Part shown: piece by piece, positions 48,355 to 49,993 of the stretch | Numbering within the stretch: the first letter of the stretch is position 1 | How the letters are laid out: each line of letters starts with the position of its first letter | Source of the DNA: Halobium salinum | GTDB lineage: Archaea; Halobacteriota; Halobacteria; Halobacteriales; Haloferacaceae | DNA: 64,000 nt | Direction of reading: 5' to 3' | Assembly: GCF_026586625.1 (NCBI RefSeq) | Contig: NZ_JAODIW010000010.1 | Coordinates: forward strand, 458,755 to 522,754 | Made by a program: the position numbers and the translations under genes | The notes under the pieces: generated by a model | Told to the model about the DNA's origin: nothing | Seen by the model: the letters and a program-made list of their open reading frames with translations, nothing else | Database searches by the model: none

Positions 48355-49311
48355 ATGAGCCCCCCCGACGACCGCGACCGAGACCGCGACCGCCGACGCG
48401 GTCGACGCCGCGACGACCGCGACGACCTCGACGAACGCCTCTCACAGTTGGAGTCGACGCTCCGCGACCTCCAGTCGAGCCTCGACCGGCCGTCTCGCCG
48501 GTTCCGGCCGCCGACGCCGCGCGAGGTGCTCCGCTTCACCGAGGAGTACACCATCCCGACGGTCATCGCCATCCTGGAGGCGAACATCCGCGCGCTCGAA
48601 CTCCTCCAGCGGGTCCTGCGCCTCGCAGAGCCCGCCCGCGCCGCCGGCGCCGAGTCGAGTGCGGCGCGCGAGCGGGCCGACGCCGTCCGGCGCGAGGCGT
48701 CCGAAGGGTTGAGCGACGCGCTCTCGGAGCTCCGAACGGCCCTCTCGGAGGCCGACCTCCCCGAGGACCCCGAGTCGCGCTCCATCGTCGAGGACGCCCG
48801 CGAGCTGAGCGCCGAAATCGAACGCCGTATCGACGAGAGCCGCGGCGGCCGGTCCCGCCAGTCCCGACGGACTCGGCGCGCTTCGGACGCCGACTGGAGC
48901 CGTTCGGGTTCGGCTCGGGACCGCGGTGGACGCGACCGGCGAGACGGACGTGACGGACGGGGCGGGCGCGACGGACGAGGTGGACGCGACGACGGTCCGG
49001 TCACCATCGAAGTGACCGACGAGGGCGACGGCTCGGCTCGCGACCGCGAGCACGAGACCGGGCGGGACGCGGACGTACCGGCGTCGGAACGAGGCGACCG
49101 GGACGACGGAGCCGACGACGCCGACCGCCCGGCCGACGAGAGCGAACTGGGCGACGCGGGCGTCGACGTGGAGTCCGAACTCCAGTCAATCAAAGAGGAG
49201 CTGGCCGACGAGCGCGGACGGTCCGAGCAGGCCGACGGCGGCACGGAGTCGGCGGACGGCGCCGACGACGCGGCCGGAGACGGTCGAGACTCGGCGGACG
49301 ACCGTTCCTGA
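48355..49311 (+). CDS. haloarchaeal protein with charged N-terminus and RGG-like repeats
   Basis: A 318-aa protein. It starts with an Arg/Asp-alternating stretch (DRDRDRDRRRGRRRDDRDD). A conserved helical core follows (~24-160: RFRPPTPREVLRFTEEYTIP, then TVIAILEANIRALELLQRVL). Next comes a Gly/Arg/Asp repeat (RDGRGGRDGRGGRDD, ~200-220) resembling RGG boxes, then an acidic tail with a short coiled coil (VESELQSIKEELADERGR). The core is widely conserved-looking, while both ends are probably disordered. Nucleic-acid binding is a guess from the RGG-like part. Confidence 0.75.
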   Translation: MSPPDDRDRDRDRRRGRRRDDRDDLDERLSQLESTLRDLQSSLDRPSRRFRPPTPREVLRFTEEYTIPTVIAILEANIRALELLQRVLRLAEPARAAGAESSAARERADAVRREASEGLSDALSELRTALSEADLPEDPESRSIVEDARELSAEIERRIDESRGGRSRQSRRTRRASDADWSRSGSARDRGGRDRRDGRDGRGGRDGRGGRDDGPVTIEVTDEGDGSARDREHETGRDADVPASERGDRDDGADDADRPADESELGDAGVDVESELQSIKEELADERGRSEQADGGTESADGADDAAGDGRDSADDRS

Positions 49312-49332: not shown

Positions 49333-49443
49333 TCAGCAGCAGCCGACCCCGAGACAGCACGAACAGCACGGACGACACTGGACGAGTTCGTTCGACTCCA
49401 CGAGGCTCGCGCGACGGTCACAGCAGTTCGTCTTCTCGGACAT
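49333..49443 (-). CDS. 36-aa cysteine-rich mini-protein
   Basis: A very short ORF with nine cysteines in 36 residues: CC at 7-8, then CRPCCSCCLGVGCC (23-36), ending directly at the TGA stop. The N-terminal half (MSEKTN, RRASLVESNELVQ) is polar. The cysteine density cannot be a composition accident in Asp/Ala-rich haloarchaeal DNA, and the ATG-to-stop frame is clean. It is divergent from an HxlR regulator whose tail is also cysteine-rich. A metal- or redox-buffering peptide (metallothionein-like) is the simplest idea; a modified peptide is another. Both are inference. Confidence 0.62.
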   Translation of the reverse strand: MSEKTNCCDRRASLVESNELVQCRPCCSCCLGVGCC

Positions 49444-49526
49444 GCGAGTCGGGCTACGGCCCGCAGTGCCGTAACTCGGTCAGTGGACGAGTGTATCGGT
49501 GGTTTCGGACAGGAAATCACCCGCCC

Positions 49527-49536
49527 GGATTTAGGA
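49527..49536 (+). promoter_or_regulatory. TATA-like box of the HxlR gene
   Basis: GGATTTAGGA is centred about 27 bases before the ATG at 49559, giving a leaderless mRNA. Confidence 0.5.
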
Positions 49537-49558
49537 TGCTCGCCGGCTACTGGAGGGT

Positions 49559-49993
49559 ATGGACCACAAGTGCGGGCGAGAAGCGCCCGACGGAGCGCCC
49601 GACGACGCGACCGACTGGCACCGGGTCTGGGACGGTCTCGGCGACGCGCTCGGGGGGAAGTGGGCATTCCACGTCCTGCGGGCGCTCGACGAGGGGGACG
49701 CCGGGTTCAACGAACTCCGCCGTCGCGTTGGGGGAATCACGGCGAAGACGCTCTCCGCTCGCCTGCGCGAGCTCCGCTGTCGGGGGTTCGTGACGCGGTC
49801 GGTCGAGGCGACGGCGCCACCGTCGACGAGCTACGCGCTCACCGACCCGGGTCGGGAGTTCGTCGGCGCCCTGCGCGGGCTGGAACGGGCCGCGGCGTCC
49901 GTCAACTGCGACTGTGACTGCTGTGCCGACGAGTCGGCGTGCCGGGTCGTGACCGTCGACGCCGGTCGCCCCGCGGCGATGTGGGACTGTTGA
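49559..49993 (+). CDS. HxlR-family transcriptional regulator with cysteine-rich tail
   Basis: A 144-aa winged-helix regulator: GGKWAFHVLRALDEGDAGFN, then ELRRRVGGITAKTLSARLRE, is the HxlR core. It has eight cysteines: C5, C74 and a tail cluster C117, C119, C121, C122, C128 (NCDCDCCADESAC) plus the last residue, C144. Typical HxlR proteins have one or two, used to sense electrophiles or disulfide stress. The tail suggests metal or redox sensing. The divergent cysteine-rich mini-protein is a natural target gene. Confidence 0.87.
   Translation: MDHKCGREAPDGAPDDATDWHRVWDGLGDALGGKWAFHVLRALDEGDAGFNELRRRVGGITAKTLSARLRELRCRGFVTRSVEATAPPSTSYALTDPGREFVGALRGLERAAASVNCDCDCCADESACRVVTVDAGRPAAMWDC

Follow-up and report, generated by a model that had tools for sequence, protein, structure and literature searches.

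A small cysteine-rich protein gene paired with an HxlR-family regulator in haloarchaea: a candidate metallothionein-like module

In the window (the whole stretch of 64,000 nucleotides of Halobium salinum DNA analyzed here), an open reading frame for a tiny cysteine-rich peptide lies divergent from a gene for an HxlR-family regulator that itself ends in a cysteine-rich tail. Is this a real gene pair and, if so, what might its two products do? The sequence-only reading had proposed a metal- or thiol-stress module made of a sensor and a small binding peptide. The arrangement recalls smtB and smtA, which are divergent and have their operator region in common. The features of the locus are as follows.

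48355-49308: DUF7547 protein (PF24414), whose gene ends at 49311, a neighbor convergent with the mini-ORF
49333-49443, minus strand: cysteine-rich mini-protein gene, 36 aa (from the ORF list, uniqueness in the window, conserved partners and dN/dS)
49471-49476, minus strand: site of the TATA-like box of the mini gene, at -33 to -28 relative to the start
49498-49521, no strand: shared palindromic candidate operator, GGTGGTTTC-ggacag-GAAATCACC (conserved position; 0/300 shuffles)
49530-49535, plus strand: TATA-like TTTAGG, about 29 nt 5' of the HxlR start (relatives have a box like it after the operator)
49559-49993, plus strand: HxlR-family winged-helix regulator with a six-Cys tail (PF01638; AlphaFold2)

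The window peptide, MSEKTNCCDRRASLVESNELVQCRPCCSCCLGVGCC, contains 9 Cys in 36 aa, and its reading frame at 49333-49443 on the minus strand is free of stop codons and frameshifts, which bears out the earlier description of an intact nine-cysteine mini-ORF. With the cut-off set at six or more Cys making up at least 15% of 20-110 aa, no second ORF like it occurs in the 64 kb. When the intergenic sequence was dinucleotide-shuffled 5000 times, no shuffle gave an ORF with nine or more Cys and at least 20% Cys, and one gave an ORF with six or more Cys and at least 15%, so the mini-ORF goes beyond chance, and its conservation in relatives confirms this. Used as the sole query, the mini-protein gave no convincing match among 98 relatives (the best had E 0.039), which is unsurprising for a cysteine-rich sequence of 36 aa, and the search was therefore anchored on the regulator. 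In a sample of 392 genomes of the order, for which all counts are lower bounds, close homologs of the window HxlR occurred in 46 at E ≤ 1e-20, a minority of haloarchaea. We retrieved and oriented 40 HxlR loci for neighborhood comparison and found a divergent cysteine-rich mini-ORF just upstream of HxlR in 20 genomes besides the window. No fewer than five haloarchaeal families are represented: besides Haloferacaceae (with Haloprofundus marisrubri and Halogranum rubrum) there are Halorussus, Haladaptatus and three or more other families. Elsewhere in 236 kb of flanking DNA only seven ORFs passed the cut-off, namely five tails of Rdx genes, one HxlR tail and one unrelated false positive. Searches of the Halorussus family and of family f5 returned no additional mini loci.

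Close pairs of mini-proteins gave dN/dS values of 0.21, 0.18 and 0.12 within one genus and 0.19 and 0.11 within another, with weaker values in two of the seven pairs (0.64 and 0.53). Nearly every Cys was retained in these pairs while other residues differed. This pattern of substitution indicates that the mini-proteins are under purifying selection and that the window ORF is a real gene. Between genera there is almost no alignable sequence, and no other genome reaches E 0.03, so common descent of the mini-proteins rests on position, promoter and composition. The sequence-only reading had named absence of the mini-ORF from relatives that keep HxlR as the observation that would speak against it; within the mini-bearing HxlR clades we found a single such loss, in G033, which retains HxlR and the operator. 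At least one lineage thus manages without the peptide. In the G033 HxlR (L148) the DNA-binding region also has an in-frame insertion of 15 aa; the operator and a DUF7547-like neighbor are still present, and this is a decaying or repurposed locus. The paired arrangement itself is conserved in the 20 other genomes and the peptide gene is under selection, as would be anticipated for the module originally suggested. The mini gene of the window forms a monocistronic unit facing the convergent DUF7547 gene; DUF7547 (PF24414) is kept as a neighbor of the module in several Haloferacaceae.

The two start codons are separated by 115 bp, and the palindrome between them reads in full GGTGGTTTCggacagGAAATCACC (consensus GGYGGTTTC-N6-GAAACCRCC). 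It is the window's only match with up to three mismatches (0.03 expected) and the only site with up to one mismatch in the whole genome, so no wider regulon is claimed. The core was present with two or fewer mismatches at 16 of the 21 mini loci, where 0-1 of 300 shuffles were as good, and its distance to the mini start was 55-58 nt in 14 loci (57 in the window). It was absent from four mini loci (G380, G039, G381 and G308). By position this matches the smtB-smtA type of arrangement, in which two divergent genes share a palindromic site in the gap that separates them; here the site would be a putative operator. A TATA-like box at -33 to -28 is what a leaderless haloarchaeal transcript needs. 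The box of the mini gene is degenerate in the window and reads TTTATC or ATATAT in relatives, and columns -31 to -29 are conserved among 17 mini promoters; from this spacing the mini gene appears to be leaderless. The same promoter geometry set the start codons of the G035 and G258 mini-proteins to GTG, the rejected ATG lying inside the TATA box. Three tail-less HxlR paralogs (L124, L125 and L127) have another intergenic palindrome, GGTGGTACC-N6-GGTACCACC, which is probably the operator of another class of regulator. A sigma-70 and terminator scan found none, as expected for an archaeon. Taken as a real gene pair with a common operator, the locus leaves us with almost no doubt.

The window regulator matched PF01638 with E 4.6e-18 (65.3 bits against a curated cut-off of 20.8), and its tail, NCDCDCCADESAC...WDC, holds six Cys, so that the HxlR regulator with a cysteine-rich tail was correctly recognized from the start. 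Profile matches in the PDB included HxlR (1e-15) and YodB (2e-15) as well as the YybR/HypR structures. The regulator did not qualify as an ArsR/SmtB-type protein (15.3 bits against 55 for NCBIfam HTH_metalloreg). In the AlphaFold2 model the winged-helix core has pLDDT above 90 and residues 124-144 fall below 50; this part of the tail is predicted to be disordered. An alignment of 13 sequences of the regulator clade showed conserved Cys at C74, C128 and C144 and no Cys column N-terminal of W24, that is, before the first core helix. Bacterial HxlR/DUF24 members have a conserved N-terminal Cys, and the window protein, which lacks it, was not assigned to the one-Cys/two-Cys class of HxlR/DUF24 redox sensors.

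Cysteine tails and partners go together. In the Cys-tail groups every one of the 37 regulators has 3-6 tail Cys (4-6 with a mini-protein, 3-5 with DUF2703, 3 with Rdx and 5 in G033), whereas the 8 others have 0-1. Regulators with such tails nearly always stand opposite a thiol-rich partner, which is a mini-protein, a thioredoxin-like DUF2703 protein or Rdx within an ArsD-ArsA arsenic operon, and the tail-less paralogs are without one. The regulator tree groups the partner types, with 5 label changes for the mini-proteins against 15 in shuffles although several deep forks are weakly supported, and partner and regulator therefore largely travel together.

In Halorussus and Haladaptatus a CDF cation-efflux gene follows on the same strand 52-77 nt past the mini stop at 7/7 loci, which probably represents one evolutionary event since these loci form one clade. 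By eye, the CDF proteins carry NxxxD in TM2 and DxxxD in TM5, motifs that do not point to one metal, and no NCBIfam equivalog matched at cut-off. We also considered a CDF gene under the same operator in the window genome and rejected it: the ortholog (71% identical) lies elsewhere, and its 3.6-kb locus has no good operator match.

The sister clades have other neighbors. The Rdx-group HxlR ends an ArsD-ArsA-HcsL-Rdx cluster, and the palindrome was not found at the Rdx loci. In Halomicrobium katesii (L065:2369-6369) and Halorientalis salina (L060:2366-6363) this arsenic cluster comprises ArsD, ArsA_halo, HcsL (halo-CC-star), an Rdx/SelW-like protein with the tail CDCDPSEL...DCSPGCC, a 90-aa Cys-containing ORF and, last, the sister Cys-tail HxlR, which may be an unrecognised arsenic regulator. 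Another sister group is divergent from DUF2703 genes whose products have a cysteine-rich C terminus (L066, L067, L068, L069, L070, L071, L072, L074, L123, L154 and L155), often with the same palindrome or a variant of it. DUF2703 proteins are thioredoxin-like (PMC3091736), and the DUF2703 gene of a Rhodococcus ars cluster is induced by arsenate (PMC6514093).

The mini-proteins range from 27 to 78 aa with 8-17 Cys. Together the 21 sequences (914 residues) are 24.6% Cys and contain no Trp, 10 Phe/Tyr and 5 His; the window peptide has no aromatic residues, and its Cys lie in CC, CxC and CxxC runs. These are the hallmarks of metallothioneins: very small size, 15-35% Cys, few or no aromatics, and CC, CxC and CxxC motifs. 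No Pfam or NCBIfam model or PDB chain tested matched the mini-proteins, and none placed them in a metallothionein sequence family. The specific pattern CC...CxxCCxCC put forward in the sequence-only reading is not what is conserved; what is kept is the number of Cys, the CC doublets and the C-terminal Cys. Most mini-proteins start with MSE, MSD, MSN or MAE followed directly by Cys, with no signal sequence evident by eye. Their Cys codons are divided roughly equally between TGC and TGT, which is uninformative because the HxlR genes show the same balance. The Halorussus amylolyticus mini-protein (L141, G097) has reached 61 aa and 17 Cys with repeated CC-Gly/Asn-rich units, which suggests growth by internal repeats.

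We consider it reasonably probable that the locus has a metal(loid)-responsive, metallothionein-like function. The idea of a sensor plus a binding peptide thus becomes the leading hypothesis, now with the added observation that tail Cys co-occur with CDF efflux, an ArsD-ArsA operon and DUF2703. The locus would then be a two-gene divergent module for thiol-metal homeostasis. An HxlR dimer would bind the palindrome. Because the site immediately precedes the HxlR TATA box, the dimer would repress its own gene; with the site some 24 bp ahead of the mini TATA box, it would also control the mini gene, by repression or activation. Binding of a thiophilic metal or metalloid by the tail Cys and the conserved C74 would alter DNA binding, and the mini gene would be released or activated. 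The leaderless peptide might chelate and buffer the ion in the manner of a metallothionein, and in Halorussus and Haladaptatus the CDF pump of the same operon might export it. Zn/Cd is our first guess for the ion because of the CDF partner, a tentative one that we would sooner expect to fail than to hold; As(III)/Sb(III), Cu(I) and Hg(II) are also candidates in view of the sister HxlR clade found in an arsenic operon.

The best-surviving alternative, which we regard as unlikely, is a thiol redox module: disulfide or electrophile stress would be sensed by the HxlR tail, with the peptide serving as a sacrificial thiol buffer alongside gamma-glutamylcysteine. Bacterial YodB and HypR sense such stress via cysteines, and the window regulator matches the YodB and YybR/HypR structures; its best NCBIfam matches, both below cut-off, are the redox regulators RrpB and RrpA. 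The sister partners DUF2703 and Rdx have thioredoxin-like folds, and haloarchaea use gamma-Glu-Cys (PMC3600143). However, CDF metal efflux in the mini operon and ArsD/ArsA beside the sister HxlR point to metals, and a 30-aa peptide would be a poor bulk redox buffer. We prefer metals over pure redox sensing because thiols abound in each of the three partner types, two of which touch metal(loid) handling. A second and less probable alternative is a small regulator or metallochaperone, where the peptide, as a ligand in a feedback loop and not a sink, would exchange metal with the HxlR tail or with the CDF pump. The tail and the peptide are both Cys-dense and co-inherited, and an operon with CDF would suit such an exchange, but the mini-proteins have no conserved interaction motif, and their spread of 27-78 aa and 8-17 Cys fits a sink better than a docking partner. 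It is very improbable that the peptide is a secreted cysteine-rich or ribosomally made modified product (RiPP or halocin-like) under HxlR: a short, fast-varying sequence with a cysteine-rich C terminus would fit, but we found no maturation enzyme, the nearest flanking genes scanned being housekeeping, unknown or CDF, and most mini-proteins are without an evident signal sequence. A Cys-codon leader peptide (attenuator) or non-coding feature in place of a protein gene is scarcely credible, for although the short ORF lies upstream of CDF in one clade, the window gene is monocistronic and convergent with DUF7547, dN/dS is well below 1 in most pairs, and Cys are kept across gaps and lengths.

The metallothionein-like reading has parallels in cyanobacterial smtB-smtA and AzuR-NmtA, the latter control being the topic of PMC8790569: here too a small cysteine-rich peptide would stand under a winged-helix regulator. 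The locus differs in being archaeal, in its operator and in its regulator, which is HxlR-family and not ArsR/SmtB, and the mini-proteins, which contain almost no His, abound in CC doublets and were matched by none of the family models tested. With the HxlR/DUF24 thiol regulators (YodB, HypR/YybR, QsrR and HxlR) the window protein shares the winged-helix family, a putative palindromic operator and predicted autoregulation, and thiol-based sensing is plausible. Its Cys, unlike those of the bacterial members, are at C74 and in a long C-terminal tail predicted to be disordered. A literature search joining the HxlR family with metals and arsenic found nothing. The NCBIfam halo-CC-star proteins HcsS and HcsL (NF041415, NF041416) are likewise small haloarchaeal proteins with a CC end, and HcsL is present in the ars operon of the sister HxlR clade. 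In contrast to the mini-proteins, HcsS carries four Cys in its 55 aa and HcsL none besides the final CC, and each has long stretches free of Cys; membership was rejected, as eight mini-proteins gave no NCBIfam model match at E up to 10. The C(P)XCG zinc-finger micro-proteins of Haloferax also contain several Cys, and the majority bind zinc (PMC11241148). The window peptide resembles them as a haloarchaeal micro-protein with several Cys and was not placed in that class, which has two C(P)XCG motifs, because it contains no such motif. DUF2703 (PF10865) shares the cysteine-rich end and, judging from position and operator, control by a sister HxlR, but is a folded thioredoxin-like domain and not a short peptide.

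A review of haloarchaeal metal resistance treats metallothioneins as no more than a general mechanism, none were found in a cadmium study of Thermococcus gammatolerans, and metallothioneins are hardly described in archaea. That the mini-proteins form an archaeal metallothionein family unknown to date, too short and variable for gene callers and homology searches, with each member under a new class of metal sensor, an HxlR with a disordered Cys tail that reads thiophilic metals, is a serious possibility to which we give slightly less than even weight. The mini gene is tiny and overlooked. A gene of under 40 aa with almost no alignable sequence could be traced here through promoter geometry and regulator linkage, and a conserved candidate metallothionein family with its own regulator and operator can be tested in tractable haloarchaea. 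HxlR proteins are known for sensing electrophiles and aldehydes; if the proposal is true, the family would gain a metal-sensing branch.
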